DNA of 58,150 nucleotides, from NCBI GenBank assembly GCA_026984735.1, contig JALSRN010000043.1, positions 1 to 58,150 of the forward strand. The letters are read 5' to 3'. Shown here one piece after another: positions 37-18,315 of the stretch. The stretch is from Sedimenticola sp. GTDB taxonomy: Bacteria > Pseudomonadota > Gammaproteobacteria > Chromatiales > Chromatiaceae. How positions within the stretch are numbered: position 1 is the stretch's first letter; every line of letters begins with the position of its first letter. Both the position numbers and the translations under genes were made by a program. A model generated the notes under the pieces. It saw only the letters and a program-made list of their open reading frames with translations. It did no database searches and had not been told where the DNA came from.

Positions 37-435
37 TTACCGTTTCGACAGTTCTTCTCTCAATCGGGTGGGCAGCGGCCGGGAACGGCCGGTGGCTCTC
101 TCCACCGCTGCATGGACGGTGGTGGCGGTGGCGCAGCGGGTTCCTTCTCGAAGGAAGGCGTAGTCCAGGGCGAAGGAGCGGTCGCCCACGCTCTTCACTC
201 GCAGCTCCACTTCGATGGTGTCGCCCAGCTTCATGGGGCGGTGGTAGTCGGCCTCCGCGCGCACCAGGGGAAGCGCGATTCCCTCTTCGATCAGGGTGGT
301 CAGGCTCAGGCCCATCGCTTCCAGAAAGCCTTCGTAGGCTTGGTGCGCATGCCGGAAGAGGTGGCCGAAGAAGAGCGCTCCGCCGGGGTCGGTCTCGTCG
401 AAAGGGACGCGGAATCGGCTGCGGTGTCGGGTCAT
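37..435 (-). CDS. Hotdog-fold acyl-CoA thioesterase, probable DHNA-CoA hydrolase (MenI-like)
   Basis: 132 residues, a single 4HBT (YbgC-type) hotdog domain. The motif FDETDPGGALFFGH (about residues 12-25) carries the Asp of the 4-hydroxybenzoyl-CoA thioesterase family. The start codon overlaps the menC stop as ATGA, so the two are translationally coupled. Thioesterases of this family include those that release 1,4-dihydroxy-2-naphthoate from its CoA ester, the step between MenB and MenA; that role is inferred from the coupling to menC and the other men genes in the window. On family grounds alone it could act on another aroyl- or acyl-CoA. It is cytosolic, with no signal peptide. Confidence 0.72.
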   Translation of the reverse strand: MTRHRSRFRVPFDETDPGGALFFGHLFRHAHQAYEGFLEAMGLSLTTLIEEGIALPLVRAEADYHRPMKLGDTIEVELRVKSVGDRSFALDYAFLREGTRCATATTVHAAVERATGRSRPLPTRLREELSKR

Positions 436-1478
436 GGATTCACTCCCAGGCCGGGAAGGTCGTTCAGATGGAGGCTGCCCCTCTCGATGCGGGGCGCGCG
501 ATGGGGATCATCGGCCAGCCAGGCTCCGGTGGCAAGGCCGTGGGCGGTCTCGGGCCGAACGGCGGCGAGGGCGGCGGCAAGCTGGCAGGCGGCATGCAGG
601 CCCACGGCCGACTCCAGGCTGGAGGTGATCACGGGCGTCATGCCGGCCCGCAGCGACCGCCGGGCCAGTTCCAGGGTGCGGCCGGGGCCGCCCTGGACCA
701 TGGGCTTGAGCACCAGCCGTTTCACGGGCGCCGAGGCGAGCACCCGCGCCGGTCCCAGAACAGCCACGGATTCGTCCAGGGCCAGGGCCACCGGGGTGCT
801 CTCCTGGAGCCGGCGCAGCGCATCGATCTCGGGGTGGCGCAGCGGTTCTTCCAGCGACTCCACCGGCAGCTCTTCGAGACCCTCGAGAAAACGGCGGGTC
901 TCCTCCAGGCTCCAGGCGCGGTTGGCGTCCAGCCGCAGGCGCACTCCTGCCGGTAGTCGGGCGCAGCAGGCGCGGAGGCAGCCCAGTTCCTCCTCCAGGT
1001 CGCCGCGGCCCACCTTCAGCTTGATCACCCGGAAGCCCTGGCGCGCCGCTGCGCCCGCCCTTGGATCGCAGGCATGGCCGGCCATGGCGTTGACCGGAAA
1101 GCGGTCCATCGCGCGGGGTTCCAGCAGGCGGCGCAAGGGGAGACGGCGTCGCCGGCTCTCCAGGTCCAGCAGCGCCGTCTCCAGGGCGCAGGCGGCGGCG
1201 GGCGCGCGGCGGGCCAGCCGGCGGGCGTGGCGGGCCAGCGTCAGGGGGTTCCAGCGCCGGGCGCACGCTTCGGCCAGGCGGCGTGACGCTGTTCGGGGTG
1301 ATTCGGTGCCGGCGGCGGGAAGAGGGGCGCACTCCCCCCATCCGTGGTGGCTTCCACAATGCAGGTGGAGCAGCCATCCCCGCCGGTGGGAGGCTTTCAG
1401 CCCCGGCCAGGGGGCGCGGAAACGAAGACGGTAGGGTCGCAGTTCCAGGCGGCAGGGGGTTGGCTCAGGAGAAAACAT
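432..1478 (-). CDS. menC: o-Succinylbenzoate synthase MenC
   Basis: 348 residues, enolase superfamily. It dehydrates SHCHC to o-succinylbenzoate in menaquinone biosynthesis. Visible family motifs are the catalytic lysine motif KLKVG, the metal-binding Asp in LRLDANRAW, the Glu in SLEEPL, the Asp in LALDESVA and a later conserved Lys (VLKPM). I chose the ATG at 1478 (MFSPEPTP); the frame stays open to 1553, but the upstream residues do not look like a MenC N-terminus. Its start lies only 6 nt from the FNR-like dyad at 1485-1498, and it is divergent from nosZ. The stop overlaps the start of the MenI-like gene. Confidence 0.85.
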   Translation of the reverse strand: MFSPEPTPCRLELRPYRLRFRAPWPGLKASHRRGWLLHLHCGSHHGWGECAPLPAAGTESPRTASRRLAEACARRWNPLTLARHARRLARRAPAAACALETALLDLESRRRRLPLRRLLEPRAMDRFPVNAMAGHACDPRAGAAARQGFRVIKLKVGRGDLEEELGCLRACCARLPAGVRLRLDANRAWSLEETRRFLEGLEELPVESLEEPLRHPEIDALRRLQESTPVALALDESVAVLGPARVLASAPVKRLVLKPMVQGGPGRTLELARRSLRAGMTPVITSSLESAVGLHAACQLAAALAAVRPETAHGLATGAWLADDPHRAPRIERGSLHLNDLPGLGVNP

Positions 1479-1484
1479 TTCGGA

Positions 1485-1498
1485 TTGACCCAGGTCAA
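1485..1498. promoter_or_regulatory. FNR/Dnr-type binding site between menC and nosZ
   Basis: A perfect dyad TTGAC-CCAG-GTCAA in the 173-bp menC-nosZ intergenic region. FNR/CRP-family regulators of anaerobic and denitrification genes bind TTGAT/C-N4-A/GTCAA. If nosZ uses class II spacing (centre at -41.5), the start point falls near 1533 and the -10 near 1521-1526 (CACACT, a weak match). For menC the site sits directly upstream of the start codon, where a bound activator could instead repress. Which family member binds cannot be told from the site. Confidence 0.72.
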
Positions 1499-1651
1499 GT
1501 GAGATCTGTGCGAAATGGCACACACTAACTGCGCTGCAATTGGCCGGCTGCACCGAGTGTCTTGGCGCTACGTGCAGCTTGAACCATGAAGTCCGGCGCC
1601 TTCGTCGTGGTTTCTGGACTTTAACGCTTGTTACCAGAAGGAGTACAACCC

Positions 1652-3964
1652 ATGAAAGTACGCAAGCCCATGCTTGCCGCCCTCGTTGCCCTGGCAGTGG
1701 GGGTCACCGCCGGAGGCCAGGCTTGGTCTCGGGAGACGTTGAAAGACGTGATGAAACGGCGGGGCCTCACCGACAAGGACATTCTGGCGGCGGCCAAGAC
1801 CTATGTCCCCACCGGTGGGCGTGACGAATACATCGTCTTCAGCTCCGGCGGCCAGAGCGGTCAGATCATCGTCTATGGCATTCCTTCCATGCGCATCCTC
1901 AAGTACGTCGGCGTCTTCACGCCGGAGCCGTGGCAGGGCTACGGCTTCGATGACGAGTCGAAGAAGGTGCTGGCCGAGGGTCGCATCAACGGCAAGGACA
2001 TCGTCTATGGGGACACCCACCACCCCGCTCTGTCGGAGACCAAGGGCGACTACGATGGCCAGTATCTCTTCATCAACGACAAGGCCAACCCGCGCATTGC
2101 GGTGATCGATCTGCACGATTTCGAGACCAAGCAGATCGTGGTCAACCCGCTGTTCCGTTCGGAACACGGCGGCGCTTTCGTCACTCCCAACACTGAGTAC
2201 GTGATGGAGGCGACCCAGTACGCTGCGCCCTACAAGGGCAGTGGCTATGTGCCCCTTTCGGACTTCAACGACAAATATCGGGGCGGCCTCACTTACTGGA
2301 AATTCGACCGAAAAGAGGGGCGCATCAAGCCGGATCAGTCCTTCACCTTCGAGCTGCCCCCCTACAGTCAGGACCTCTCCGACGCCGGCAAGGGACCCAG
2401 CTACGGTTGGGGCTTCACCAACTCCTTCTGCTCGGAGCGGTACGTGGGCGGCATCGAGAAGGGTCGTCCGCCGTTCGAGGCCGGTTGCTCCTCCAAGGAC
2501 ACCGACTTCCTCCACGTGACCAACTGGAAGAAGGCCGAATCCTTGATCAAGGCCGGCAAGATCGGCAAGAAGGTCAACGGCATGACGCTGATCTCCATGA
2601 AGGAGGCGGTGGACAACGGCCTGCTCTATCTGATTCCCGAGCCGAAGAGCCCCCATGGGGTGGACGTGGTGCCCACCGGCGACAAGATCGTCGTCTCGGG
2701 CAAGCTGGACAGCCACACCTGGGTGTATGACTGGAACAAGATCCAGAAAGCGATCAAGAGCCGCAAGTTCGAGGGCAAGGATCCTTACGGCATTCCCATC
2801 ATCGCCCTGAAGGACGTGCTCCACACCTCGGTGAACGTGGGCCTGGGGCCGCTGCACACCCAGTTCGACTCCAAGCCGTGCGTCGCCTACACCTCCATCT
2901 ATGTGGACTCCATGATCACCAAGTGGGACTACTGTAAAGGCAAGGTGCTGGACCAGTTGCCCATCCACTACAACGTGGGCCACCTGATGACGATGGAAGG
3001 CGACACCGTGAAGCCCGATGGCAAGTACCTGGTGGCGCTCAACAAGCTGGCCATCGACCGCTTCAATCCGGTGGGTCCCCTGCACCCGCAGAACCATCAG
3101 CTCATCGACATCAGCGGCGACAAGATGCAGCTGCTCTACGACATGCCGGTGCCGCTTGGCGAGCCCCACTACGCGGTGGCCATCAAGGCTGACAAGCTCA
3201 AGCCGGTGATCCGCTACAAGTCGGGCTGGAACAGCCGCGAGGACAAACGCTCGCAGTGGCGCGTGCGGGCCGGCCGCGAGAAGATCGAGCGCAGCTGCGA
3301 CGCCAACGGCAAGTGCGTGGTCAATGTCTACGGCACCACCATCCGTTCTCACATCACGCCTGAAATCATCGAGGTCACCGAAGGGGATACGGTCCATATC
3401 CACCTGACCAACCTCGAGCGGGCCGAGGACGAGGTGCACGGCTTCGCCATGTTCGGTCACAACGTCCAGCTCTCGCTCGAGCCGGGCAAGACCGCCACGG
3501 CGACCATCGTGGCCGACAAGCCGGGCGTCTATCCCTACTACTGCACCGAGTTCTGCTCGGCACTCCACCTGGAGATGCAGGGCTACCTGCTGGTGCAGCC
3601 CAAGGGATACAAGGCGAAAGGGGGCGGCCTGAAGGCAGGCACCACCTACACCGAGGCGGACTACAAGAAGCAGGTCAAGACCAACCTGCAGACCCAGGAC
3701 GTCATCAACCAAGTGGTTGGCTTCATCACCAGCCACAACTACAAGGACTTCCCCACCGTGGTCGCCTTGGTTGAGGACGCCACCGACCAGCTCGGTTTCG
3801 CCAAGGACGCTCGCGCCAAGGCTGAAGCGGCTGCCGCCAAGAAGGACTGGAACAACGCAATGCTCTGGGCCAACCAGTGGTGGCAGTACCAGGTCAAGGC
3901 GGCGGACCTCGGTCTGCGGGCCAAGACCTACCTGCAACAGCACGGCGCCAAGAAGATCAAGTAA
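1652..3964 (+). CDS. nosZ: Nitrous oxide reductase NosZ (Sec-type, clade II-like)
   Basis: 770 residues, periplasmic, reducing N2O to N2. The N-terminus has a Sec-like signal (MKVRK, hydrophobic run, AWS) without a twin arginine, typical of clade II enzymes; the nosB downstream agrees. The beta-propeller carries the CuZ histidine motifs DTHHP, SPHG, GPLHT, NVGH and EPHY. The C-terminal cupredoxin has the complete CuA motif CTEFCSALHLEM (C631, C635, H639, M642). Residues 651-770 form an extra, mainly helical, cysteine-free tail; it has no heme motif, unlike the cytochrome domain of some epsilonproteobacterial NosZ. The start was chosen because GAAGGAG lies 9 nt upstream of the ATG; an upstream GTG/TTG-type extension is not credible. 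Confidence 0.96.
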   Translation: MKVRKPMLAALVALAVGVTAGGQAWSRETLKDVMKRRGLTDKDILAAAKTYVPTGGRDEYIVFSSGGQSGQIIVYGIPSMRILKYVGVFTPEPWQGYGFDDESKKVLAEGRINGKDIVYGDTHHPALSETKGDYDGQYLFINDKANPRIAVIDLHDFETKQIVVNPLFRSEHGGAFVTPNTEYVMEATQYAAPYKGSGYVPLSDFNDKYRGGLTYWKFDRKEGRIKPDQSFTFELPPYSQDLSDAGKGPSYGWGFTNSFCSERYVGGIEKGRPPFEAGCSSKDTDFLHVTNWKKAESLIKAGKIGKKVNGMTLISMKEAVDNGLLYLIPEPKSPHGVDVVPTGDKIVVSGKLDSHTWVYDWNKIQKAIKSRKFEGKDPYGIPIIALKDVLHTSVNVGLGPLHTQFDSKPCVAYTSIYVDSMITKWDYCKGKVLDQLPIHYNVGHLMTMEGDTVKPDGKYLVALNKLAIDRFNPVGPLHPQNHQLIDISGDKMQLLYDMPVPLGEPHYAVAIKADKLKPVIRYKSGWNSREDKRSQWRVRAGREKIERSCDANGKCVVNVYGTTIRSHITPEIIEVTEGDTVHIHLTNLERAEDEVHGFAMFGHNVQLSLEPGKTATATIVADKPGVYPYYCTEFCSALHLEMQGYLLVQPKGYKAKGGGLKAGTTYTEADYKKQVKTNLQTQDVINQVVGFITSHNYKDFPTVVALVEDATDQLGFAKDARAKAEAAAAKKDWNNAMLWANQWWQYQVKAADLGLRAKTYLQQHGAKKIK

Positions 3965-3978
3965 GATCTGACGGCGTT

Positions 3979-4008
3979 CCGGAACCCCGGCCCCGGCCGG
4001 GGTTCCGG
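3979..4008 (+). other. Strong hairpin after nosZ
   Basis: A 14-base arm CCGGAACCCCGGCC is followed after 2 nt by its exact reverse complement, 15 nt past the nosZ stop. There is no U tract, so it is more likely a 3' stabiliser of the nosZ message or part of a composite terminator than a stand-alone terminator. Confidence 0.6.
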
Positions 4009-4033
4009 TGAACCTCCGCAGGTATTACCATTC

Positions 4034-4058
4034 AAGGGGTGAATCTTCACCCCTTTTT
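4034..4058 (+). terminator. Intrinsic terminator or attenuator between nosZ and the first cytochrome gene
   Basis: The arms AAGGGGTGAA and TTCACCCCTT are followed by further T residues (a run of 5 in all). It ends 21 nt before the next start codon. Its place between nosZ and the accessory genes suggests partial termination, giving more nosZ transcript than downstream transcript. Confidence 0.7.
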
Positions 4059-4079
4059 CACATCAGGAGAAACGACCCA

Positions 4080-4421
4080 ATGTTGATCAAGAAGTTTTCC
4101 ATGATCGCGCTTTCCGCGGCGTTGGCCGCGGCCGCTTTCGTCGGCCCGGCCTCCGCAGCGGACGGCAAGAAGCTCTTCATGACTTGCGCCGCCTGCCACG
4201 GCAAGGACGGCAAGAGCCCCATCATGCCGGCCTATCCCAAGATTGCCGGCCAGAACAAGGAGTATGTGCTGCAACAGCTCAAGGACATTCTGAGCGGAGC
4301 CCGGGCCAACGGCCAGTCGGCGGCCATGCGCGGCGTGCTGGTCACGCCCGAGGGTCAGCCCCGATTCAGTGACGCGGATCTCCAGGCCCTGGCGGAGTAC
4401 GTCTCCAGCCTGGCGCCCTGA
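4080..4421 (+). CDS. Monoheme cytochrome c (c553-like), probable electron donor to NosZ
   Basis: 113 residues. A Sec signal peptide (MLIKKFSMIA... ASA, about residues 1-26) precedes a small class I cytochrome c with one heme site, CAACH (C36-H40). The region around IMPAYPKIAGQ and the later AAMRG supply candidate distal Met ligands. The start at 4080 has AGGAGA 9 nt upstream. It is the first gene after nosZ, where clade II nos clusters commonly carry small cytochromes (NosC type). The role as periplasmic electron carrier to CuA of NosZ is inferred from context. Confidence 0.88.
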   Translation: MLIKKFSMIALSAALAAAAFVGPASAADGKKLFMTCAACHGKDGKSPIMPAYPKIAGQNKEYVLQQLKDILSGARANGQSAAMRGVLVTPEGQPRFSDADLQALAEYVSSLAP

Positions 4422-4435
4422 TTTTTGGAGAGCAT

Positions 4436-4475
4436 GGAGAAGGCGGCTTCCGGACGGGGAGCCGCCTCTCTTTTG
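4436..4475 (+). terminator. Intrinsic terminator after the monoheme cytochrome gene
   Basis: The arms AGGCGGCT and AGCCGCCT, extended by GAGA/TCTC with one bulge, are followed by TCTCTTTTG. It lies 15 nt past the stop codon and 39 nt before the next gene. Confidence 0.65.
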
Positions 4476-4513
4476 CGATTCCGATCCAGCAGTTTCGAAT
4501 ATTCCGAAATTCC

Positions 4514-5197
4514 ATGAAGCGTGTAAAGGTCATGGCGCTGTGCCTGGGGATGGCCTGGGCGGCGGCCGCCTTGGCGGAAAAGCGGGTGATCCCACCCTTT
4601 GACAAGTACGATGCCGAGGACATCATGGACATCTGCGCCGGTTGCCACGGAATCTATGGACAGGGCACGCCCGATGGGGAGTATCCGCGGCTCGCCGGCC
4701 AGGATCCTGCCTACCTGGCTCGAGAGATCCATCTCTTCAAAGATCGCAAAAGGATCAACATTCCCATGATTCCCTATGCCAACGATCGCGAGCTGCCGCC
4801 GGAGGACGTGGCCACCATCACCGCCTATCTGGCCAGCATCCAGTTGCCACGCCATCTCAAGCCCCTGAAGCCGGGCGAGCCCTTCGATGCCTTGGCACGG
4901 CTGGAAGAGAGCAAGAAGGTGCTGAACATCCCCCACTATCCTGGCGATCCCAAGCGCGGAGGGCGGCTCTACCGTCGCGAATGCGCCAGTTGTCACGGCA
5001 GGAAGGGGGAAGGCAACTGGGAGAAACACGTTCCCATGCTCACCGGCCAGCACAGCAAATATCTGCTGCGGCAGGTGGAGCGGATCCGCAAGGGGGAGCG
5101 GATCCACGACACTCCCGAGGACGCCGAGCTGTTTCGGGAGTACACTGACCAGGAGATTGCCGACATTTTGGCTTGGCTCTCTCGGCAGGACGACTGA
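4514..5197 (+). CDS. Diheme cytochrome c (c4-like), first copy
   Basis: 227 residues. A short Sec signal (to about ALA-E22) is followed by two tandem cytochrome c domains with heme sites CAGCH (C41-H45) and CASCH (C157-H161). Both domains share the YPRLAGQ / PMLTGQHSKYL pattern of cytochrome c4-type proteins. It lies between nosZ and nosB and resembles the next gene in length and layout, suggesting an old duplication. The ribosome binding site is weak (no clear AGGAG before 4514). A periplasmic electron-transfer role towards NosZ is inferred. Confidence 0.87.
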   Translation: MKRVKVMALCLGMAWAAAALAEKRVIPPFDKYDAEDIMDICAGCHGIYGQGTPDGEYPRLAGQDPAYLAREIHLFKDRKRINIPMIPYANDRELPPEDVATITAYLASIQLPRHLKPLKPGEPFDALARLEESKKVLNIPHYPGDPKRGGRLYRRECASCHGRKGEGNWEKHVPMLTGQHSKYLLRQVERIRKGERIHDTPEDAELFREYTDQEIADILAWLSRQDD

Positions 5198-5242
5198 GAA
5201 GTGGTGTAATACCTTGTTTGAACAATGGTTTATGGTGCCGGC

Positions 5243-5256
5243 TTGACTTTGCTCAA
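5243..5256. promoter_or_regulatory. FNR-like site before the second diheme cytochrome gene
   Basis: TTGAC-TTTG-CTCAA keeps all eight core bases TTGA-N6-TCAA. With its centre at 5249.5, class II spacing predicts a -10 at 5279-5284, where TAGCAT (4 of 6 match TATAAT) is found. A separate dyad TTGTT-TG-AACAA lies just upstream at 5214-5225. The gene starts at 5347. Confidence 0.6.
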
Positions 5257-5346
5257 GTGTACGGAAGAGAGCCGGTGATAGCATTTGAACCCGTGTCAAT
5301 CCGGGTGGGTCGAATCGCCTGATCCATTCATCTTCGGAGGAAATCA

Positions 5347-6060
5347 ATGAAAAGACGTTCCATCGTTTCCCTGGCGGGAGTGGCCGCCACCCTGCTCATC
5401 AGCAGCTCCGCCAACGCCTGGCTGGAACACACCGGCGAGCGGGACGAGGCGCTGAAACTCAAGCCGAATCGCGAGAACGGCATCGAGGTGTTCGAGGTCT
5501 GTTCCGCCTGCCACCTCACCGAAGGGTGGGGCACCAAGGACGGCACCTTCCCCCAGATCGCCGGTCAGCACCAGACGGTGCTGGTCAAACAGTTGGCCGA
5601 CATCCGCGAGGGCAACCGGGACAACCCCACCATGTATCCTTTCGCCAAGCCCGAGTCCATCGGCGGTCCGCAGGCCATGGCGGACGTGACCTACTATGTC
5701 TCCAAGCTGCCCATGAACCCGGACAACGGCAAGGGGCCCTGGAAGCCGGGTACCCCCGAGTGGAAGGAGGGCCAGAAGCTCTTCAAAGAGAACTGCGTCA
5801 AGTGCCACGGCGATCAGGGGCAAGGCAGCGCCGAGAAGTTCTATCCGCAGATTCGTGGCCAGCACTACAAGTACATGCTGCGACAGTTCGAGTGGATCCG
5901 CACGGGCAAGCGGCGCAACGCCAACCCCGACATGGTGAAGCAGATCAAGAACTTCACCCGTGATCAGGAGAAGAAGGTGATCAACTATGTCTCCTGGATC
6001 AAGGTGCCCAAGGAGCTGCTGGCGCCCTCCAAGGACTGGACCAACCCCGACTTCGACTGA
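5347..6060 (+). CDS. Diheme cytochrome c (c4-like), second copy
   Basis: 237 residues. A signal peptide (MKRRSIVSLAG... ANA, about 24 residues) precedes two cytochrome c domains with heme sites CSACH (C52-H56) and CVKCH (C150-H154). Each domain has the FPQIAGQH / YPQIRGQHYKYML segment typical of c4-type cytochromes. GGAGG precedes the ATG by 6 nt. It has its own upstream FNR-like site and a terminator-like hairpin downstream, so it may be a separate unit within the nos region. Transfer of electrons from the quinol-oxidising NosG/NosH side to NosZ is the likely but unproven job. Confidence 0.88.
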   Translation: MKRRSIVSLAGVAATLLISSSANAWLEHTGERDEALKLKPNRENGIEVFEVCSACHLTEGWGTKDGTFPQIAGQHQTVLVKQLADIREGNRDNPTMYPFAKPESIGGPQAMADVTYYVSKLPMNPDNGKGPWKPGTPEWKEGQKLFKENCVKCHGDQGQGSAEKFYPQIRGQHYKYMLRQFEWIRTGKRRNANPDMVKQIKNFTRDQEKKVINYVSWIKVPKELLAPSKDWTNPDFD

Positions 6061-6114
6061 TTCGATTCCAGCTCTGCCCGTCCTTTGGGGACGGCGAGGC
6101 CGGGGATGGACGGG

Positions 6115-6137: not shown

Positions 6138-6304
6138 GTCGTTATGGAGGAGCAAATTCCCGGCGTTCATTGGGGTTTGGATCGCAGGAGTGCGAACCGC
6201 GACATTTCAGGAAATCTTGCGTCCTGAGGGCGGATCCCTTTCGGTCGTGTCTGCCGGCTGAAAACCGGGATTCCCGGGGTGCTTGAAAACTTTTGGAGGC
6301 ACTC

Positions 6305-6387: not shown

Positions 6388-7638
6388 ATGTCCAAGCGCG
6401 TCATTCTTTCCAATCTTCTGATCCTGGCCAGCGTGGTGTTGCTGGTGGTGATCTATTTCGCGCCCATCTGGTGGGTGTCGCTGACGGCGCCCAACTATCC
6501 CAAGGAGTCCTTCCCCGACGGCGTGCGCATCCATTTCCACATGAACGGCGTGTTCAACGGGTGCAAGAAGGTGGCCAAGAAGGAGATCGAAGAGCAGGAG
6601 GTGCTCGACTGCGTGCACGAGATGGACACCATCAACCACTATGTGGGGATGTACCCCATCGCCGCCGGAGGCGTGGTGGAGAAGGCGTTTTCTCCTTTCC
6701 TCATGTCGCTGTTGGGGGTGATGCTGCTCGGTTTCGCCTGCACCAAGCCCAAGATCCGCTTGGGGATCATGGCGGTGGGCTTTTTGGGTATCGCGGTCTG
6801 GATGTCGCTCTACTGGTTCGGCAAGGATGGGCTCAAATACCAGCCGGCCGGCTACATCGAGGCCCTGGTGAAGTCCATGGGGCAGGAGGGCGATCAGGGA
6901 GGGGGCAACGACCAGGCGGCGCGCGCGGTGATCGAACGGATCAAGTCCTCCCTCGGCAACGAGACCGTGGACATCGAGGAGGTCAAGAAGAGGGTGCGGG
7001 ACAAGCAGGCCAAGACGCTGCTCGAGATCGCTTCTTCCCTGGCTCAGGGGGACGAAGAGATCAAGAAGGAGGAGCAGCGGCTCCAGTCGGACCCCAAACT
7101 GGCCGACATCGAGACGTTGCGAGGGGCTTTCGAAGCCGACCAGGCGAAGAAGCCGGCGGATCGGCGCGAGGCCTGGACCGGCAGCGGCCGGCAGGTGCTG
7201 CGCTGGCACTATGCCAAGAGCCTCGGTCGCTATTTCAACAACCCGGCCGAGATCGAGCCCATGGCGAGGAAGATGAGCCTGGCGGCCGACATCGTCTATT
7301 GGGGCATCCTGGCGGCCATGGTGCTGCTGCTGTGGGGCGCCCGCAAGACCGGCGGCGTCATCTATTGGCTGATGATCCTGGTGCCCATGGCATTGCCTCT
7401 CTTCTTCGTGGTGGAGTATTCGGCCTGGCTGTGGTGGTATGGCCACCGGCTCAACTCCATGGGGGCCTTCACGGTGAAGCCCTTCATGCCCACGGTGTTC
7501 GGCAATGGCAAGGTGGCCCAGTTCACCACCCACTCCTATCCCTACTGGGGATTCGGCCTGATGCTCCTCATGTCGGCGCTGCTGGCCGTGGCGGCGCTGT
7601 TGCGGCGCAAGGAGTTGAAAGAGAAGGGGAGCGAATGA
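6388..7638 (+). CDS. nosB: NosB-like integral membrane protein
   Basis: 416 residues. One N-terminal membrane helix (about 8-28) precedes a periplasmic-looking segment rich in charged residues. Two helices (about 107-150), a long charged loop (about 165-305) and about four C-terminal helices (310-412) follow. This layout, and the place between nosZ and nosD, fit the NosB protein found with clade II nitrous oxide reductases; its biochemical role is not settled. The start was set at MSKRVILSNL, since the upstream frame (to 6283) is not membrane-like and lies in the promoter. The stop overlaps the nosD start. Confidence 0.75.
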   Translation: MSKRVILSNLLILASVVLLVVIYFAPIWWVSLTAPNYPKESFPDGVRIHFHMNGVFNGCKKVAKKEIEEQEVLDCVHEMDTINHYVGMYPIAAGGVVEKAFSPFLMSLLGVMLLGFACTKPKIRLGIMAVGFLGIAVWMSLYWFGKDGLKYQPAGYIEALVKSMGQEGDQGGGNDQAARAVIERIKSSLGNETVDIEEVKKRVRDKQAKTLLEIASSLAQGDEEIKKEEQRLQSDPKLADIETLRGAFEADQAKKPADRREAWTGSGRQVLRWHYAKSLGRYFNNPAEIEPMARKMSLAADIVYWGILAAMVLLLWGARKTGGVIYWLMILVPMALPLFFVVEYSAWLWWYGHRLNSMGAFTVKPFMPTVFGNGKVAQFTTHSYPYWGFGLMLLMSALLAVAALLRRKELKEKGSE

Positions 7639-10762: not shown

Positions 10763-10805
10763 GCGTTGCTTGCGCCGACGCCGAAGGCAGCGGGGGAAGA
10801 CGGCC

Positions 10806-11681
10806 ATGCCGATGATCGAGCTGAGCCGGGTCACCAAGAAGTTCCGGCGCCAGGAGGTGCTCAAAGGGATCGACCTGACGCTGGAGGAGGGCGATCGTGT
10901 GGCGCTGGTGGGCTCCAACGGGGCCGGCAAGACCACCTTGATCCGCTGCCTGCTGGGGGAATACCGCTGCGGCGGGCATGTGCGGGTGGACGGGCGCGAG
11001 CCACGCGCCCATCGCACCGAAGTGCTGCGCCGGGTGGGCTTCGTGCCGCAGATCTCGCCGCCGCTGAAGATGCCGGTGGGGCAGCTGGTCCACTTTGCCG
11101 CCGGAGTGTGCGACAGTTCCCCCGACCGCATGTTCGAAGTGGCCGAGCGGCTGGGGCTGGATGCCCGCAAGATCCGCCGCCAGCCTTTCAACAAACTTTC
11201 GGGCGGCATGAAGCAGAAGCTGCTTATCGCCGTCGCGTTGGGGCGCGAGTGCAAGCTGCTGGTGCTGGACGAACCGGCGGCCAATCTCGATCCGGAAGCC
11301 CGCCATCGCTTCTTCCAGTTGCTGGCCGAGCGGAAGGAGAAAGCCGCCATGATCATTTCCAGCCACCGGCTCGACGAGGTGGCATCTCTGGTGAACCGGG
11401 TGGTGGAGATGGATCAGGGCCGCGTGGTGCTCGACGATCAGGTGGCCGATGACGTCTCCATGACCGCCATGCTCCGCAGCCGGATCGAGCTGGCGCGTCC
11501 CAGCGACGCATTCGCCCGCGCCGCGCGGGAGTGGGGGTTCGAAGAGAGCGAGGAAGGCCGGGTGTGGGAAGGCCGGGTGGCCGGTCCGGACCGCTTGCGT
11601 TTCCTGGGCGTGGTGTCGCGGTACGCGGCCCTCCTCAAAGGGATCGAGCTGCGGGAACAGGGGGGTGTCCATGCGGAGTGA
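10806..11681 (+). CDS. nosF: NosF, ABC transporter ATPase for NosZ maturation
   Basis: 291 residues. Walker A GSNGAGKTT (36-44), ABC signature LSGGMKQKL and Walker B LLVLDEPAANLD are intact. It pairs with the permease NosY to supply sulfur or another factor for CuZ assembly through NosD. The ATG at 10806 (MPMIEL) follows nosH by 43 nt; an internal ATG two codons on is also possible. Its end overlaps nosL by 11 nt. Confidence 0.93.
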   Translation: MPMIELSRVTKKFRRQEVLKGIDLTLEEGDRVALVGSNGAGKTTLIRCLLGEYRCGGHVRVDGREPRAHRTEVLRRVGFVPQISPPLKMPVGQLVHFAAGVCDSSPDRMFEVAERLGLDARKIRRQPFNKLSGGMKQKLLIAVALGRECKLLVLDEPAANLDPEARHRFFQLLAERKEKAAMIISSHRLDEVASLVNRVVEMDQGRVVLDDQVADDVSMTAMLRSRIELARPSDAFARAAREWGFEESEEGRVWEGRVAGPDRLRFLGVVSRYAALLKGIELREQGGVHAE

Positions 11682-12177
11682 ACGCATCGCCTGGGCGGCG
11701 GTCGCGGGAATTTTGCTCCTGCTGGCCGGTTGCGGGGGCGAGCCCGACACCGGCCCCGGCAAGGTGCGTTGGGACCGCGAGACCTGCGTCCGCTGCGGCA
11801 TGGCCGTCAGCGATCCCAAATACTCCGCCCAGGTGCGGGCGCCGCGCCAGCATGGCAAACGGCCGTTGTACAAGTTCGACGACATCGGTTGCGCCATCAT
11901 CTGGCTGGATCAACAGCCGTGGAAGGACGATCCCACGGTGGAGATCTGGGTGAACGACTATCACGACGGCAAGTGGCTCGATGCGCGCAAGGCGTGGTAT
12001 GTGCCCGGAAAGATCACCCCCATGGGCTATGGGCTGGGAGCCACCGACAAGAAAGAGCCGGGCGCCATGGATTTCGCCGCCGCCCGCAAGCACGTCTACG
12101 AGGTGGAAGAGAAGTACCATGTCCATCGCGGGGGCGAGTCGCACGCGGTTCCCGCGCCGCAAGAGGCACACCCATGA
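11671..12177 (+). CDS. nosL: NosL, outer-membrane copper chaperone lipoprotein
   Basis: 168 residues from the ATG at 11671 (a GTG two codons upstream is the alternative). A lipoprotein signal with lipobox LLAGC is followed by the NosL domain with the Cu(I)-binding motif CVRCGM and the conserved FDDIGC segment. NosL delivers copper to apo-NosZ. The stop overlaps the nosY start (ATGA). Confidence 0.93.
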   Translation: MRSERIAWAAVAGILLLLAGCGGEPDTGPGKVRWDRETCVRCGMAVSDPKYSAQVRAPRQHGKRPLYKFDDIGCAIIWLDQQPWKDDPTVEIWVNDYHDGKWLDARKAWYVPGKITPMGYGLGATDKKEPGAMDFAAARKHVYEVEEKYHVHRGGESHAVPAPQEAHP

Positions 12178-13001
12178 AACATCTGCTGCTCACCGCCAAG
12201 GCGGATATCAGTGAATCGCTCCGTTCCCGCTGGTTTCTCATCTACACCCTGGTGTTCGGCGGCGTGGTGGTGGCGCTGTTCATCTCCGGCCTCACCGAAT
12301 CGCGCGTGATGGGCTTCACCGGCCTGTCGCGGCTGCTGGTCACCTATCTGCAGATCACCATGGCGATCCTGCCGCTCTTCGTGCTCATCACCACGGTGCG
12401 TTCGGTGGCGGGGGACCGGGAAGCGGGGATCTTCGAGTACATGCTTTCCCTGCCGGTGAGCCTGTCGAGCTGGTTCTGGGGCAAGCTGGCGGGGCGTTTT
12501 CTGGTGGTGTTCCTGCCTGTCATCCTCGCGCTGTTCGGCGCGGTGGTGTGGGGCAAGCTCAAAGGCGTTGAGATTCCCTGGGCTCAGGTGACGCTCTATA
12601 CCGCCTTTCTGATCTCGCTGGCGTGGTGTTTTCTCGGCATCGGCATGTTCATCTCCACCGTCGCCCGCTCCTCGGATGTGGCCACCGGGGCCGCTTTCAT
12701 CGTCTGGCTCTTTCTGCTGCTCTTTCTGGATCTCATCCTTCTGGGGGTGCTGATCCGGGAAGGGCTGCCGCCGGAGACCGTCATCGCCATCGCGCTGGCC
12801 AATCCGCTGCAGGTGTTCCGCACCGGCTCCATGTTGCTGTTCGATCCCCAACTGGTGCTGCTGGGGCCGGCCGCCTACGTCATCCTCGACAACTTTGGAG
12901 AGAAGGGCTATCTCGCCTGGAGCATCCTCTATCCCTTGGCGTTGGGGACCCTCTTCGCCTGGCTGGGGTTTCGGCTCTTCCGCAAGGGTGACCTGCCCTG
13001 A
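12174..13001 (+). CDS. nosY: NosY, ABC transporter permease for NosZ maturation
   Basis: 275 residues with six predicted membrane helices and the ABC-2 permease motif region SVAGDREAGIFEYMLSLP after the second helix. It forms the inner-membrane channel with NosF. The start is the ATG inside the nosL stop; the reading frame extends upstream but there it only shadows nosL. The last base of its stop is the first base of the next start. Confidence 0.92.
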   Translation: MKHLLLTAKADISESLRSRWFLIYTLVFGGVVVALFISGLTESRVMGFTGLSRLLVTYLQITMAILPLFVLITTVRSVAGDREAGIFEYMLSLPVSLSSWFWGKLAGRFLVVFLPVILALFGAVVWGKLKGVEIPWAQVTLYTAFLISLAWCFLGIGMFISTVARSSDVATGAAFIVWLFLLLFLDLILLGVLIREGLPPETVIAIALANPLQVFRTGSMLLFDPQLVLLGPAAYVILDNFGEKGYLAWSILYPLALGTLFAWLGFRLFRKGDLP

Positions 13002-13474
13002 TGGCCTCGTCCCGGAGCAGGTGGCTCTCGTCGCTGCTGGTGATTGCGTTGCTGGCCGTCGCCGGGGGAGCCTGGTGGCATTTCCGGGACTATTTCCAGC
13101 CGCCTCCGGCGCAGCGTCTGCCGCTCGACGGTTGCGATCTCCAGAAACAGGCCTGTCGGCGCGCCCTGCCCGGCGGGGGGACGCTGGAGTTCAGCATCAC
13201 GCCGAGGCCCATTCCGCTGGTCGCCCCGTTGAAACTGCGGGTGCGGCTCGAAGGAGTGGAAGCGCGGCGGGTGGAGGTGGACTTCGCCGGCTTGAACATG
13301 AACATGGGCTACAACCGGCCGAGGTTGAAAAGGGCGGGCGCCGGCGTCTTCGAAGGAGAGGGGTATCTTCCGGTGTGCATTCGCCGCCACATGGAGTGGG
13401 AGGCGCAGGTACTTCTCTATTTGCGTCACCGGGTGCTCGCCGTTCCTTTCCGCTTCGACACCTATAAGAACTGA
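13001..13474 (+). CDS. Membrane-anchored periplasmic protein of unknown function in the nos operon
   Basis: 157 residues. One N-terminal helix (about 9-27) anchors a mostly beta domain with the Met-rich motif LNMNMGYNRPRL, a later RRHMEW, and cysteines in DGCDLQKQAC and PVCIRRH. Met and Cys clusters in a small periplasmic protein inside a copper-enzyme operon suggest copper handling, as in CopC- or SCO-linked proteins, but I do not recognise the family. It overlaps nosY by one base and ends 1 nt before menF, so it bridges the nos and men genes in one transcript. Confidence 0.7.
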   Translation: MASSRSRWLSSLLVIALLAVAGGAWWHFRDYFQPPPAQRLPLDGCDLQKQACRRALPGGGTLEFSITPRPIPLVAPLKLRVRLEGVEARRVEVDFAGLNMNMGYNRPRLKRAGAGVFEGEGYLPVCIRRHMEWEAQVLLYLRHRVLAVPFRFDTYKN

Positions 13475-13475
13475 G

Positions 13476-14864
13476 ATGCATTCTCCCGAAGCCAAGCCGA
13501 TGCCGCCCACGCCGGTCTGGGTGGGACGGCTCGCTCTGGAGCTGAGACGTCTGGCGGCGCCGCTGCTGGGCGGGCGCCGGGATGGCCTGCTCTCCTTCAC
13601 CTTCGAGGTTCCCATCGGGCCTTTCGCCCCTTCGGCAGCGGCGGCCCGCCGCTGGTTCTATTGGCACCGGCCGGAGAGCGATCATCGGCTGCTCGGCGTG
13701 GGAGAGGCCTTTTCGGCGCGTGAGCGGGGCGAGGGGCGCTTTGCCCGTCTCGGCCGCCAAGTGCGCCGCCTCCAGGAGCAGTGGACGCACATCAACCAGG
13801 GGCGGGCCGATCCTCTCGCCCGCGCTTTTCTCGGCTTCGCCTTCGATCCCGAGGAGCGGCCCGAAGGCGCCTGGCGCACCTTTCCCAATGCGGCCTGGGT
13901 GGTGCCCACACTGTTGCTGGAGTGGCGCGAGGACCGATGCACCCTCACCTTCACGCACCACTGCGGGCGACGTTCGCCCACCGCCGGCCAGGTGGTGGAC
14001 GGCTGGATCAGCCAGCTTCGGCGGCTGCTGGAGGCGTCCGCCGAGGGCGAACCCGGCGAGCCGCTCCGGTTGCTGAATCGCCGGGAGTCTCCCGGCGCGG
14101 AGCGGTGGAAGGCGGAGGTGGCCGCAGCGGTGACCGCCATCCGCGAGGGAGAGCGCCTGCGCAAGGTGGTGCTCTCCCGCACCCTGGAACTCGGCTTCCA
14201 GGCGCCGCCGCCGATCGGCCCGTTGCTGCAAGCGCTGGCGCGGGATTTCCCCGGCTGCGCCACTTTGGGCGCGCGGTTCGGCGAGAATGCCCTGGTGGCG
14301 GCCACGCCCGAACGGTTGCTGGCCCTGCGGAGGGGCGAAGTGTTCAGCGACGCCATCGCCGGCACCCTGCCCGACGACGCCGTCGTCGCCGATGAAGGGA
14401 TGCGGTGGCACGAACATCAGCCAGTGGTGGAGGGGATCCGCGCCGCCCTCGGCCCTTGGTGCGAGGAGGTGGATGCGGCGGCGCGGCCCCGTTTGCTGAG
14501 AATGCCCGCCTTCTCCCATCTTGCCACTCCGGTGCGGGCGAGGCTGCGCCGCGATGCCGATCTCTTCTTCCTGCTCGACGCCCTTCATCCCACCCCGGCG
14601 GTGGGCGGAGTGCCGCGCGAAGAGGCGATGGCCTGGATCCGCGGCTGCGAAGGGCACCGGCGGGGGTGGTACACCGGCGCCTTCGGATGGATGGCGGACT
14701 TGGGACGGGCGGAGCTGTCGGTGGTGCTGCGCTGCGGCTTGGTGGAGGGCGCGCACCTCACTCTGTTCGCCGGCGCCGGAATCACCGAGGTCTCGGACCC
14801 CCGCGCCGAATTGGGGGAGACCGACCTCAAGTTCCGGACGCTCCTGGACCGGCTGCCTCAATGA
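13476..14864 (+). CDS. menF: Isochorismate synthase MenF
   Basis: 462 residues, chorismate-utilising enzyme family. It makes isochorismate, the first committed step of menaquinone synthesis. The C-terminal catalytic half shows KVVLSRTLEL, the AIAGT motif, LHPTPAVGG and the metal and substrate motif GAGITEVSDPRAELGETDLK. The paired synthase motifs and the next gene being menD favour MenF over salicylate or siderophore isochorismate synthases. It starts 1 nt after the preceding gene. Confidence 0.9.
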   Translation: MHSPEAKPMPPTPVWVGRLALELRRLAAPLLGGRRDGLLSFTFEVPIGPFAPSAAAARRWFYWHRPESDHRLLGVGEAFSARERGEGRFARLGRQVRRLQEQWTHINQGRADPLARAFLGFAFDPEERPEGAWRTFPNAAWVVPTLLLEWREDRCTLTFTHHCGRRSPTAGQVVDGWISQLRRLLEASAEGEPGEPLRLLNRRESPGAERWKAEVAAAVTAIREGERLRKVVLSRTLELGFQAPPPIGPLLQALARDFPGCATLGARFGENALVAATPERLLALRRGEVFSDAIAGTLPDDAVVADEGMRWHEHQPVVEGIRAALGPWCEEVDAAARPRLLRMPAFSHLATPVRARLRRDADLFFLLDALHPTPAVGGVPREEAMAWIRGCEGHRRGWYTGAFGWMADLGRAELSVVLRCGLVEGAHLTLFAGAGITEVSDPRAELGETDLKFRTLLDRLPQ

Positions 14865-16480
14865 GCGATCCGGGCCGGGTCAACCTGGAGTGGGCGCTCT
14901 CGCTGCTGGACGGCCTGGCGGGAGCGGGCCTGGAAGAGGTGGTGATCTCGCCCGGTTCGCGCAGCACGCCATTGGTGCTGGGAACCCTTCTTCATCCCCG
15001 CTTGCGGGAGACGGTGGTGGTGGACGAGCGTTGCGCCGCTTTCACCGCCCTGGGCATGGCGAAGGCGGCCCGGCGGCCCGTGGCCCTGGTGGCCACCTCC
15101 GGCAGCGCGCCGGGCAACTGGATGCCGGCGGTGATGGAGGCGTCCGAGAGCGGCGTGCCGCTGCTGTTGCTCAGCGCCGACCGCCCCTGGGAGCTCCATG
15201 GCTGCGGCGCCAATCAGACCACCGACCAGATTCGGCTCTTCGGCGCCCATGCGCGGGCGTTCCATGCGGTGTCGGAGGCGGCGGACGACGAGGGGCAACG
15301 GCGCCGGTTGCGATCGCTCGGCCGCCAGGCGATGCGACAGTGCCAGTGGCCCGACCCCGGCCCCGTGCATCTGAATCTCCCTTTCCGCGAACCGCTGGTG
15401 CCTTCCGGACAACTTCCCCAACCGGCGGAGTGCGCGGTTCGTCCGCTCTTCTTTCCCTCGTCGAGTCCGCCACCCGCTTTGCTCACCCGCTTGCTGGAGT
15501 GCTTTTCCGCCGGGCCGGGGCTGATTTTGTGCGGAGAGAGCAGCGCTCCTCTGGAAAGCATCCCCGAGCTTGCGGAGGCTCTGGGAGTGCCGCTGCTGGC
15601 CGATCCTCTCTCGGGATTGCGCTTCACCGACCAAGCCTCTCCCAACCGCATCGCCGCCTATTCGCGGTTCCTCGCCTCGCCCGAAAGGGTGGAGGAGCTC
15701 CGTCCCCACTGGATCCTCCAGTTCGGCGGCCTGCCCATCGCCGCCACCTTGCGCCGGGCGCTGGAAGCGTGGCGAGTGGAGCGACATTGGGTGGTGGATC
15801 CCCGGGGACGCCGCGTCGATCCCCTCGGGCTCGGAGCGGAGACGCTGGCGGTGGAACCGGCGTTGCTGGCCGACGCGATTCGCAAGCTGCGGCCCAACCG
15901 CGAGGAACCCCAGTGGCTCTACCGCTGGCGCCATGCGGAAGGGGGGGCGCAAGCGCCGCTGCCCGAAGCGGGGGTGATCCGCCGGGTAGTGGAAGCGCTG
16001 CCCGACGGCAGCCTGTTCTTTTGCGGCAACTCGCTGGCCATCCGCTGGCTGGACGCCTGGTCGGGGGAGGGAGCGCGCCGCATCGCCATCCACGGCAATC
16101 GGGGGTTGAGCGGCATCGACGGCAACCTCTCCACCTTCATCGGCATGGCCCGGCGCTGGAGGGGCGCGGGCCGCCGGCTGGCGCTGCTGGGCGATCTCAC
16201 CTTTCAACACGACCTGGGCGCCCTGGCCAACACCGACGGGGTGGAGGCGGTGGCGGTGGTGGTGAACAATGGCGGCGGCGCCATTTTCGACACGCTGCCC
16301 CAGCGCCGTCTGCCCCATTTCGAGGCCTGCTGGCGCACCCCTCAGTCGCTCGACCTGGCCCACCTGGCGGGCCTTTTCGGGATCGGCTTCCGGCGCGTGG
16401 AGAAGAGCGAAGGGGTGAAAGAGGCGCTGGAGGCGGCTTTCGAGGCTGGCGGCTTCCAGGTGGTGGAGCTGCGGCTGTAG
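14861..16480 (+). CDS. menD: SEPHCHC synthase MenD
   Basis: 539 residues, thiamine diphosphate enzyme joining 2-oxoglutarate and isochorismate. The N-terminal motif VVISPGSRSTPL and the C-terminal ThDP site (LALLGDLTFQHDLGALAN, VVVNNGGGAIFDTLPQ) are characteristic. Length is close to the usual 550. The ATG overlaps the menF stop by 4 nt. No menH follows; SHCHC may form without it or menH lies elsewhere. Confidence 0.94.
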   Translation: MSDPGRVNLEWALSLLDGLAGAGLEEVVISPGSRSTPLVLGTLLHPRLRETVVVDERCAAFTALGMAKAARRPVALVATSGSAPGNWMPAVMEASESGVPLLLLSADRPWELHGCGANQTTDQIRLFGAHARAFHAVSEAADDEGQRRRLRSLGRQAMRQCQWPDPGPVHLNLPFREPLVPSGQLPQPAECAVRPLFFPSSSPPPALLTRLLECFSAGPGLILCGESSAPLESIPELAEALGVPLLADPLSGLRFTDQASPNRIAAYSRFLASPERVEELRPHWILQFGGLPIAATLRRALEAWRVERHWVVDPRGRRVDPLGLGAETLAVEPALLADAIRKLRPNREEPQWLYRWRHAEGGAQAPLPEAGVIRRVVEALPDGSLFFCGNSLAIRWLDAWSGEGARRIAIHGNRGLSGIDGNLSTFIGMARRWRGAGRRLALLGDLTFQHDLGALANTDGVEAVAVVVNNGGGAIFDTLPQRRLPHFEACWRTPQSLDLAHLAGLFGIGFRRVEKSEGVKEALEAAFEAGGFQVVELRL

Positions 16481-16569
16481 GGGCTCCGCGCGGCCGAGGG
16501 ACTGCTGCCGGGGAAGGCAGGGGGACGCCTCGAAAAATCGGGATGCCCGTGCGGGCGAGGGAGATCCCT

Positions 16570-16575
16570 TATAAT
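16570..16575 (+). promoter_or_regulatory. -10 box of a likely menB promoter
   Basis: A perfect TATAAT lies in the 129-bp menD-menB gap, 34 nt before the menB ATG. No good -35 is visible. It suggests that menB-menA can be transcribed independently of the nos-men polycistron. Confidence 0.45.
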
Positions 16576-16609
16576 CTTCCGCCAGTTTCCCCCCAGGAGT
16601 GCTCTTTCC

Positions 16610-17434
16610 ATGAGTTGGCAGGCCGTGCCCGACCGGGAATACCAGGACATTCTCTACCACCACCATCCGGAGGGCGTCGCCCGCATCACCATCAACCGGC
16701 CCGAAGTGCGCAACGCCTTCCGGCCGCGCACGGTGATGGAGTTGATGGATGCTTTCCACCACGCCCACATGGCGCAGGAGATCGGCGTCATCGTGCTCAC
16801 CGGCGCCGGCAAAGAGGCTTTCTGCTCCGGCGGCGACCAGAAAGTGCGGGGCGATGAGGGGGGCTATCGGGACGAGCGGGGGGTGCACCATCTAAACGTG
16901 CTCGATCTGCAGATGCAGATCCGCCGCCTTCCCAAGCCGGTGGTGGCCCAGGTGGCGGGCTACGCCATCGGCGGCGGCCATGTATTGCACTTGGTGTGCG
17001 ACCTCACCATCGCCGCCGACAACGCCCGCTTCGGCCAGACCGGTCCGCGGGTGGGCTCTTTCGACGCCGGCCTGGGCGCCGGCATCCTGGCGCGCACGGT
17101 GGGACTGAAAAGAGCCAAGGAGATCTGGTTCCTCTGCCGCCAGTACGACGCCCAGGAGGCTTTGGCCATGGGACTGGTGAACGCCGTGGTGCCCTTGGAG
17201 CGGCTGGAGGAGGAGACGCTGGCCTGGTGCCGGCGGATGCTCAGACACTCGCCCACCGCCCTGCGCCTGCTCAAGGCGGGGTTCAACGCCGACACCGACG
17301 GCCTCGCCGGCATCCAGGAGCTGGCCGGCAACGCCACCGCGCTCTTCTACATGACCGCCGAGGGCCAGGAAGGGCGGGATGCCTTTCTGGAGAAGCGCGA
17401 GCCCGATTTCGGGCGCTTTCCCCGCCGGCCCTGA
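16610..17434 (+). CDS. menB: 1,4-Dihydroxy-2-naphthoyl-CoA synthase MenB
   Basis: 274 residues, crotonase fold. It closes the naphthoquinone ring from o-succinylbenzoyl-Co[29 protein letters not shown] and [10 protein letters not shown] are MenB-type oxyanion-hole and active-site segments, and the HNLD-like stretch HHLNVLDLQ is present. A clear AGGAG precedes the ATG. The stop shares a base with the menA start. Confidence 0.94.
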
Positions 17435-18315
17435 TGGCGCCTCTCTCCGCCTGGCTCGCGGCCGTCCGCCCCACGACCTTGGGCCTCTCCATCAGTCCCG
17501 TGTTGGCAGGCACGGCCCTGGCGGTGGGCGATACCGGCCGTTTTCATCTCCCGGTCTTCGGGGCGGCGCTGGCGGCGGCGCTGCTCATACAGATCGGCAC
17601 CAATCTGCACAATGACGTGGCCGATCATCGCCGGGGCACCGACCGTCCCGGTCGCGCGGGCCCGCCGAGAGCGGTGGCCGAAGGGTGGCTCAGCGCCGCT
17701 GCCGTGGAGCGCGGCGCCTGGGCCGCTTTCTTCGCCGCTTTCCTGATCGGCGTCTATCTGGCGTGGGTGGGGGGCTGGCCCATCGTGGCGTTGGGGTTGG
17801 CTTCGCTGGCGGCGGGCGCCGCCTATTCGGGAGGGCCGCGTCCCCTCTCCTCCCTGCCGGTGGGAGAGCTCTTCGTGCTGCTCTTCTTCGGCTTGGCGGC
17901 AGTGGCGGGCAGCTACTATCTGCAAACGGGCGCGGTGACGCCGCGCGCGCTGCTGGCCGGGGCGGCGCTGGGGTCGCCGGCGGCCGCCGTGCTGGTGGTG
18001 AACAACCTGCGCGACCGGGAGGAGGACGCCCGATCGGGGCGAGCGACCCTGGCGGTGTTGCTGCCGGTATGGGGCAGCCGCCTGGAGTACACGCTGCTGA
18101 CGCTCGTCCCTTTCTTGTTGCTCGTTCCGTTGCTGCCTTTTCCCTGGCTCGGCCTGCCTTTGGCCGCATTGCCGGTCGCGCTCGCTTTGGTGCGGGCGCT
18201 GTGGCGGCTGCCGCCGGGGAGGGCGTTCAACGGCCTGTTGGCCCGGACCGCCCGGCTGGATCTGCTTCTAGGGCTGCTGTTCTCGTCCGCGGCGGTGGCG
18301 CCGCGAATGCTATGA
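17434..18315 (+). CDS. menA: 1,4-Dihydroxy-2-naphthoate polyprenyltransferase MenA
   Basis: 293 residues with eight to nine membrane helices. The UbiA-family prenyl-diphosphate motifs are NLHNDVADHRRGTD (first Asp-rich motif) and NNLRDREEDARSG (second). It attaches the isoprenoid tail, giving demethylmenaquinone. The start is the ATG that overlaps the menB stop (TGATG). Confidence 0.93.
   Translation: MAPLSAWLAAVRPTTLGLSISPVLAGTALAVGDTGRFHLPVFGAALAAALLIQIGTNLHNDVADHRRGTDRPGRAGPPRAVAEGWLSAAAVERGAWAAFFAAFLIGVYLAWVGGWPIVALGLASLAAGAAYSGGPRPLSSLPVGELFVLLFFGLAAVAGSYYLQTGAVTPRALLAGAALGSPAAAVLVVNNLRDREEDARSGRATLAVLLPVWGSRLEYTLLTLVPFLLLVPLLPFPWLGLPLAALPVALALVRALWRLPPGRAFNGLLARTARLDLLLGLLFSSAAVAPRML

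Follow-up and report, generated by a model that had tools for sequence, protein, structure and literature searches.

Clade II nitrous oxide (N2O) reductase (NosZ) is the enzyme of many N2O sinks, and knowledge of the quinone that feeds it rests, to our knowledge, largely on Wolinella succinogenes. We know of no men genes in a nos cluster of the W. succinogenes type. Such a cluster encodes clade II NosZ, NosB, NosD, NosG, NosH, NosF, NosY, NosL and cytochromes c (Simon 2004 and Hein 2017, as quoted in PMC11102522 and PMC11539149). Here we describe a whole contig of 58,150 bases (C43, hereafter the window) from a metagenome-assembled genome (MAG) of Sedimenticola sp., in which the same nos genes, together with an additional gene, u157, are flanked and followed by genes of the classical menaquinone (men) pathway. 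Stand-alone men operons with nosZ not nearby (L056-L060, L062, L064-L066, L070 and L071) hold the same enzymes in the similar order menF-D-B-A-C(-I), but in the window the men set is split in two around nos. As in Fnr/Dnr-type promoters of denitrification genes, a TTGAY-N4-RTCAA box stands about 32 bp before a conserved CACACTA; unlike in those promoters, the gap that holds the box also faces menC-menI.

With moderate confidence, we read this nos cluster inside a split men cluster as one oxygen-controlled module that would supply menaquinol to N2O respiration. A search of the open-access part of the literature found no description of nos and men genes together, in agreement with the first-pass annotation, which knew of no nos cluster with its own quinone pathway. 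The clade II nos cluster and the classical men pathway are each known; the literature searched does not describe the two combined, nor that the combination recurs and has apparently been transferred as a block.

Gene content and order

Positions 37 to 18,315 hold a nested order, with a menI-like gene and menC on the minus strand, nosZ through menA on the plus strand, and sppA beyond. A complete clade II nos cluster is enclosed by menC-menI on one side and menF-menD-menB-menA on the other, and the left end of the window lies 36 nt from menI. The features are as follows.

37..435, minus strand: menI-like hotdog thioesterase, predicted 1,4-dihydroxy-2-naphthoyl-CoA thioesterase (PF13279, 75.8 bits; YbgC/FadM type, under every curated NCBIfam cut-off)
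432..1478, minus strand: menC, o-succinylbenzoate synthase, ATG at 1478 (TIGR01927, 163.8 bits, cut-off 130.55)
1485..1498, no strand assigned: Fnr-type box TTGACCCAGGTCAA in the divergent menC-nosZ gap (exact match to TTGAY-N4-RTCAA)
1652..3964, plus strand: nosZ, clade II (Sec-dependent) nitrous oxide reductase (TIGR04246, 860.8 bits, cut-off 625)
4080..4421, plus strand: c-type cytochrome 1, one CxxCH, weak NCBIfam cytochrome c matches, conserved 3' of nosZ
4441..4467, plus strand: terminator-like hairpin of 11 pairs after cytochrome 1 (pattern match only)
4514..5197, plus strand: c-type cytochrome 2, two CxxCH, weak NCBIfam cytochrome c matches, conserved in relatives
5243..5256, no strand assigned: second Fnr-like box TTGACTTTGCTCAA, upstream of cytochrome 3 (pattern match with one mismatch)
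5347..6060, plus strand: c-type cytochrome 3, two CxxCH, weak NCBIfam cytochrome c matches, conserved in relatives
6388..7638, plus strand: nosB-like membrane protein, TTG at 6283 a possible start (position, size and conservation)
7635..8930, plus strand: nosD (TIGR04247, 400.2 bits, cut-off 300)
8934..9788, plus strand: nosG, NapG-type ferredoxin (NF007012, 117.6 bits, under the NapG cut-off of 269)
9785..10762, plus strand: nosH, NapH-type membrane ferredoxin (TIGR02163, 240.8 bits, cut-off 213.05)
10806..11681, plus strand: nosF, ABC ATPase (general ABC ATPase matches only)
11665..12177, plus strand: nosL (PF05573, 32.4 bits, cut-off 24)
12174..13001, plus strand: nosY, ABC-2 permease (PF12679, 78.7 bits, cut-off 27.2)
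13001..13474, plus strand: u157, 157-residue membrane-anchored beta-sandwich protein (alignment and structure model, see below)
13476..14864, plus strand: menF, isochorismate synthase (TIGR00543, 247.8 bits, cut-off 224.75)
14861..16480, plus strand: menD (TIGR00173, 395.9 bits, cut-off 244.2)
16610..17434, plus strand: menB (NF005637, 477.9 bits, cut-off 380)
17434..18315, plus strand: menA (TIGR00751, 157.3 bits, cut-off 102.15)
18353..20116, plus strand: sppA, which marks the right-hand end of the block in g1 (TIGR00705, 457.4 bits, cut-off 311.45)

The nos and men genes named in the first-pass annotation are all present by profile match, apart from the nosB-like protein, which has no Pfam or NCBIfam match and is named from its place, size and conservation. 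The menF, menD, menC, menB and menA products each exceed at least one curated cut-off, and NosZ falls under the cut-off of the clade I model (375.6 bits, cut-off 625). The MenI-like product is a hotdog thioesterase that reaches no curated cut-off; its gene neighbours menC in g1 and g3 and also lies within other men clusters. Three c-type cytochrome genes missing from the earlier gene list sit between nosZ and nosB. Between nosB and menD, neighbouring genes either overlap or are separated by 43 nt at most, as had been stated, and the widest gap, between nosH and nosF, is 43 nt because nosF has an ATG at 10806. A gap of 130 nt separates menD from menB, and menB and menA overlap. The hairpin scan, which returned 16 terminator-like sites in the region against 11.9 expected, finds none at the u157-menF junction; this and the gene spacing agree with one predicted transcript through 13474-13476.

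The pathway's menE lies on a different contig. The best candidate in the MAG (2.44 Mb, 101 contigs, 99.99% complete, 1.99% contaminated) is C44:11901-13130, for which MenE is the best family at 284-288 bits, short of the cut-off of 330. It lies close to the 3' terminus of C44, with about 230 nt of contig left beyond it, and likely adjoins the window's menI in the MAG; we say only likely because no overlapping sequence joins that contig end to the start of the window. In 11 stretches from g1 and g3, menE lies within about 0.4 kb past menI (2.2 kb in G173), and in these relatives menE, I, C, F, D, B and A therefore embrace the nos cluster.

Conservation, recurrence and probable transfer of the linkage

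The nested block is a stable feature of g1, the window's genus-level group within the Gammaproteobacteria. In all 13 g1 genomes sampled, menC and nosZ point away from each other and the gap holds an Fnr-type box, matching the divergence of menC and the MenI-like gene from nosZ first described for the window. The u157-menF join stands on one contig in eight of the 13 (G000, G021, G024, G078, G094, G112, G182, G187), and the other five break off at contig edges before it. Ten of the 13 have menD above cut-off; those without are G173, G187 and G188 (84-93% complete), and the G187 contig ends inside menF. The same nested block occurs in two genomes of the sister genus g3, G002 and G004.

Could the neighbourhood be due to chance or to faulty assembly? 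The window is a MAG contig, and one g1 locus (G094, L039:13475-17053) has a 3.8 kb insert of opposite-strand genes between u157 and menF. However, the same join is found in G004, a single-contig genome, in G024, which is in three contigs, and in the MAGs L004 and L006, and the linkage recurs in other lineages far more often than a binomial model allows (below). We regard this explanation as very improbable.

A linkage-blind survey covered 195 genomes of the order (one family, 56 genera) and 369 of the class, drawn from larger groups. The order sample holds 85 genomes with clade II nosZ above cut-off, 119 with menD and 47 with both; a further 20 nosZ genomes from outside the family (18 above the nosZ cut-off, 2 partial) were also screened for menD. 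With both genes on one contig, nosZ and menD lie within 26 kb in g1 (6/6), g3 (2/2), g12 (6/6), g13 (1/1) and g48 (1/1). Outside the family, menD exceeds its cut-off in 10 of the 20, and six of these ten are linked, namely f99 (G509, G411), f103 (G412, G296, G511) and f123 (G316); G319 and G278 are unlinked, contig arithmetic places the genes at least 28 kb apart in G291, and the distance in G491 is unresolved. Beyond g1 and g3, nos and men are thus within 26 kb in six further lineages (g12, g13, g48, f99, f103, f123), three of them other families. The first-pass annotation had allowed that no other genome might share the linkage; many do, in several arrangements. In g12 and g48, menF-D-B-A-C(-I) and menE converge with nos; in g13 (G077), menF-D converges with nos and menB-A lies beyond; in f123, nos and men are likewise convergent. 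In f99 and the MAG loci L012-L015, L020, L022 and L023, nosZ diverges from menF-D-B-A-C-I; these MAG loci were retrieved by searching with MenF and so form a biased sample, and L023 and L083 of G411 are counted once. Family f103 has a single co-directional run, nosZ...nosY-cytochrome 2-menC-menI-menD-menB-menF, and menA is not present in the f103 stretches examined.

Scored by lineage, seven of 14 are linked (the g1/g3 block, g12, g13, g48, f99, f103, f123) and seven unlinked (g20, g24, g26, g29, f85, f98, f126), a count that omits g30, g31, g32, g39, g41 and f58, whose genes lie near contig ends. For a 2.44 Mb genome, the binomial chance of seven lineages linked within 26 kb is about 6e-9, of six 2.4e-7 (with g13, scored as linked though only G077 of its two genomes is, moved over) and of four 1.7e-4, figures to be read in the knowledge that the 26 kb limit was chosen after seeing the data and that the lineages have ancestors in common. 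In a 48-row MenD tree, linkage state changes seven times, by gain or loss, if six unresolved rows (G083, G066, G087, G081, G110, G491) are taken as unlinked and five times without them, the figure adopted here, unlinked rows including nosZ-free genomes; five changes are also found among the 31 rows with nosZ and a known distance. Because gene orders differ between lineages, several separate joins are indicated.

Between g1 and g3, the whole block has likely moved, in either direction, because NosZ and MenD of G002 and G004 nest within g1 while RpoB does not. In the NosZ tree, G002 and G004 group with the window and G094, apart from other g1 (support 100/99), and they do likewise in the MenD tree (100/100). 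In the RpoB tree, g1 and g3 are separate, at 100/100 each (G078 omitted as short; G021, G112 and G184 partial; no match in G182 and G077). The right flank was compared in two g3 genomes: g1 loci have sppA adjoining or near menA, G031 has after menA a gene that by eye resembles a molybdopterin nitrate reductase, and the right flank of G002 contains an 85-residue match (89%) to that G031 gene. In two further g3 genomes, G066 and G083, nosZ is about 77% identical and menD belongs to a different branch. In the single-contig g3 genome G031 (L055:6624-13178), what remains is menE, menI, menC, menB-menA and about 130 codons of nosZ (model positions 1-85); the rest of nos has naturally been lost, and menF and menD with it.

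Two other loci bear on the history of the linkage. In G046 of g20 (L066:14696-16986), cytochrome 2 and an Fnr-type box adjoin menE, with nosZ 61 kb away, which suggests a relic of a formerly tighter linkage. In the single-contig genome G052 (L053:13654-14541), which has no menD above cut-off and no MqnC match, a true MenA gene lies about 4 kb from nosZ, followed by what by eye is an IS110-like transposase, possibly a remnant of a lost nos-men block.

Predicted control by Fnr

The window contains two exact TTGAY-N4-RTCAA boxes against 0.10 expected. The box at 1485-1498, in the menC-nosZ gap, lies about 32 bp before the conserved, -10-like CACACTA, a spacing that is that of Fnr-activated promoters, and Fnr is encoded in the MAG (274.3 bits, cut-off 228); Fnr is predicted to bind here. 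The second exact box, at 44002-44015 between queA and tgt, we take as chance. For the one-mismatch box at 5243-5256, one-mismatch sites occupy the same gap in L037, L038, L039 and L042, although L037 and L038 have such a site 3' of nosZ as well. Exact boxes near cytochrome 3 are found in many other loci.

Every nested locus examined has an Fnr-type box in its menC-nosZ gap. Such a box also lies between nosZ and menF in 8/8 distinct divergent loci, and no more than 300 nt from nosZ in 48 of 51 records, duplicates included (exceptions L063, L069 and L093). Because nosZ has its box with or without men genes beside it, the box is an opportunity for shared control and not proof of it. Stand-alone menF, in contrast, has no exact box within 800 nt upstream in any of 61 cases (0/61), all with at least 800 nt of upstream sequence, a count that omits linked loci, L140 (g13, on another contig), the duplicates L018 and L101, and short flanks; Fnr control of men therefore appears not to be general. 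Three convergent loci omitted as linked (L049, L074, L088) have a menF without a box. A box 615-725 nt before the menF match in 6/6 g12 genomes was not counted because in L098, the locus examined, it lies inside a divergent coding sequence. The menF of L039, past its insert, has no exact Fnr-type box within 1 kb, and its control may therefore differ. In nested, divergent and co-directional forms the men genes are under or beside the predicted control of nosZ; in convergent forms they are not.

To the first-pass annotation the arrangement looked like one genetic module that makes the quinol and spends it on N2O. The module part of this reading is supported, in that the linkage recurs, co-regulation is predicted from the Fnr-type boxes, and the block appears to have been inherited, and once moved, as a unit; the strict menaquinol link through NosG and NosH is not supported as stated.

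The quinone that feeds NosZ

How the parts might work together can be sketched. We predict that under anoxia Fnr becomes active and binds the menC-nosZ box and the imperfect box before cytochrome 3. This would turn on nosZ, menC-menI and the run from cytochrome 3 and nosB through u157 to menF-D-B-A together, with predicted read-through into menF. The men enzymes, with MenE encoded on the other contig, would then make a menaquinone pool beside ubiquinone; UbiA is present in the MAG (341.5 bits, cut-off 275) and with MenA makes up its only two UbiA-family matches, and ubiquinone is therefore likely present besides menaquinone. Menaquinol would be oxidised by the NapGH-like NosG-NosH, and electrons would pass through the clustered cytochromes c to NosZ, reducing N2O to N2. 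The likely selective reasons are that co-induction would make a low-potential quinone available just at the time N2O serves as acceptor, and that nos and men could be transferred as one piece. According to PMC11102522, which repeats an earlier prediction, NosC1 and NosC2 of Wolinella carry electrons from menaquinol. According to PMC10300362, nosZ and men genes are both absent from the same reduced genome of a tubeworm symbiont, a consistent but single case. It is possible, though we hold it tentatively, that the block is a self-supplied, transferable N2O module in which nos and the pathway for its quinone share one oxygen-sensing control. Such a module would have arisen several times over in Gammaproteobacteria by independent joins and passed whole from one genus to another, and would give a ubiquinone-based host menaquinol-driven N2O reduction in one step. 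If the module does transfer as one piece, it would also be a route for the spread of N2O respiration.

A number of observations weigh against a module dedicated to menaquinol-driven N2O respiration. Some concern linkage: in the g13 genome G027 nosZ and menD do not share a contig, and both ends of the nosZ contig are over 59 kb away from the gene; nosZ and menD are 60-75 kb apart in g20 (4/4), 89 kb in g24 and more than 1 Mb in g29 (3/3); and f126 and f85 hold the two genes far apart. Others concern control, in that the shared-gap box may serve nosZ alone, convergent forms (g12, g13, g48, f123) have no promoter in common with nosZ, and the hairpin after cytochrome 1 means that later genes may not share nosZ's promoter. 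In Nitrosophilus, according to PMC11539149, expression of menaquinone synthesis did not change significantly on N2O addition. Across the 195 genomes, menD occurs in 47/85 with nosZ and 72/110 without (Fisher p = 0.18), and with no enrichment we rejected co-occurrence as support. In genus g4, nosZ exceeds its cut-off in 20 of 22 sampled genomes and menD in none of the 22, and 17 of the 20 nosZ genomes also have no MqnC match and so neither menaquinone marker; nosB, nosG and nosH are kept in both g4 loci examined in full (L051 of G008, which has an MqnC-like match under cut-off, and L052 of G019). Finally, two NapC/NirT-family proteins and a DsrM-like protein in the MAG, all under NCBIfam cut-offs, could be alternative users of menaquinol.

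These last proteins fit the explanation that men joined nos as fellow members of the Fnr regulon, with menaquinone serving all anaerobic respiration, through Nap/Nir-type cytochromes and a Dsr membrane complex, and not N2O especially, as does the frequency of menD among the nosZ-free family members sampled. However, nos is the repeated partner across several gene orders and families (nos linkage alone was surveyed, and other partners are possible), and the lack of an exact box within 800 nt of unlinked menF suggests that Fnr control of men is not general. We judge a general anaerobic quinone unlikely, if still a serious contender. A further alternative is that men is a passenger, present for reasons apart from N2O, and that NosZ runs on ubiquinol through bc1 or NosGH, as presumably in g4; PMC11539149 gives two electron routes to NosZ, bc1 and NosGH-NosBC2-NosC1. 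The g4 genomes with nosZ and no menaquinone marker, the retention of NosG and NosH in L051 and L052, and the true UbiA in the MAG favour this alternative, but the linkage has recurred with varying gene order, and nested and divergent forms alike have a box in a shared divergent gap, so we find it improbable.

Returning to the oxygen-controlled module that we prefer, g4 sets its limits. The first-pass annotation had taken NosG and NosH to be menaquinol dehydrogenases, which as a specific role is not supported: g4 argues against strict menaquinol specificity of NosGH as a general rule, and nosZ and menD are not co-enriched. Because these relatives keep nosZ without menaquinone markers, menaquinone is not obligatory for clade II NosZ, and because they keep NosZ without sign of menaquinone synthesis, the linkage is likely an advantage and not a requirement. 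Its recurrence suggests a preferred quinone, for which evolution has provided by more than one route. Nature supplies the comparisons within the family: nested, divergent, co-directional and convergent blocks, a nosZ genus mostly without a menaquinone marker, and the loss in G031.

Four of the 22 g4 genomes, three of them with nosZ, have a strong MqnC-family match, under cut-off, in a frame of about 800 residues. These frames (G008:C1:4186964-4189231, and in G048, G059 and G072) contain several MqnC-family matches each, as if two radical enzymes of the futalosine pathway had been fused.

The gene at the junction of the two pathways, u157, belongs with nos rather than with men. It adjoins nosY also in men-free stretches (L052, L089), and the single-contig g4 genome G019, which has neither menaquinone marker, keeps it along with nosB, D, G, H, F, L and Y. 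The sequence has no Pfam or NCBIfam match and the structure model no PDB match at E <= 0.001; the model comprises one N-terminal helix and a confident beta-sandwich (mean predicted local distance difference test score 89.8). In an alignment of 18 sequences, Cys45, Cys52, Met100, Met102, Cys126 and Met131 are invariant, a Met/Cys pattern from which we would guess at a role in copper handling.

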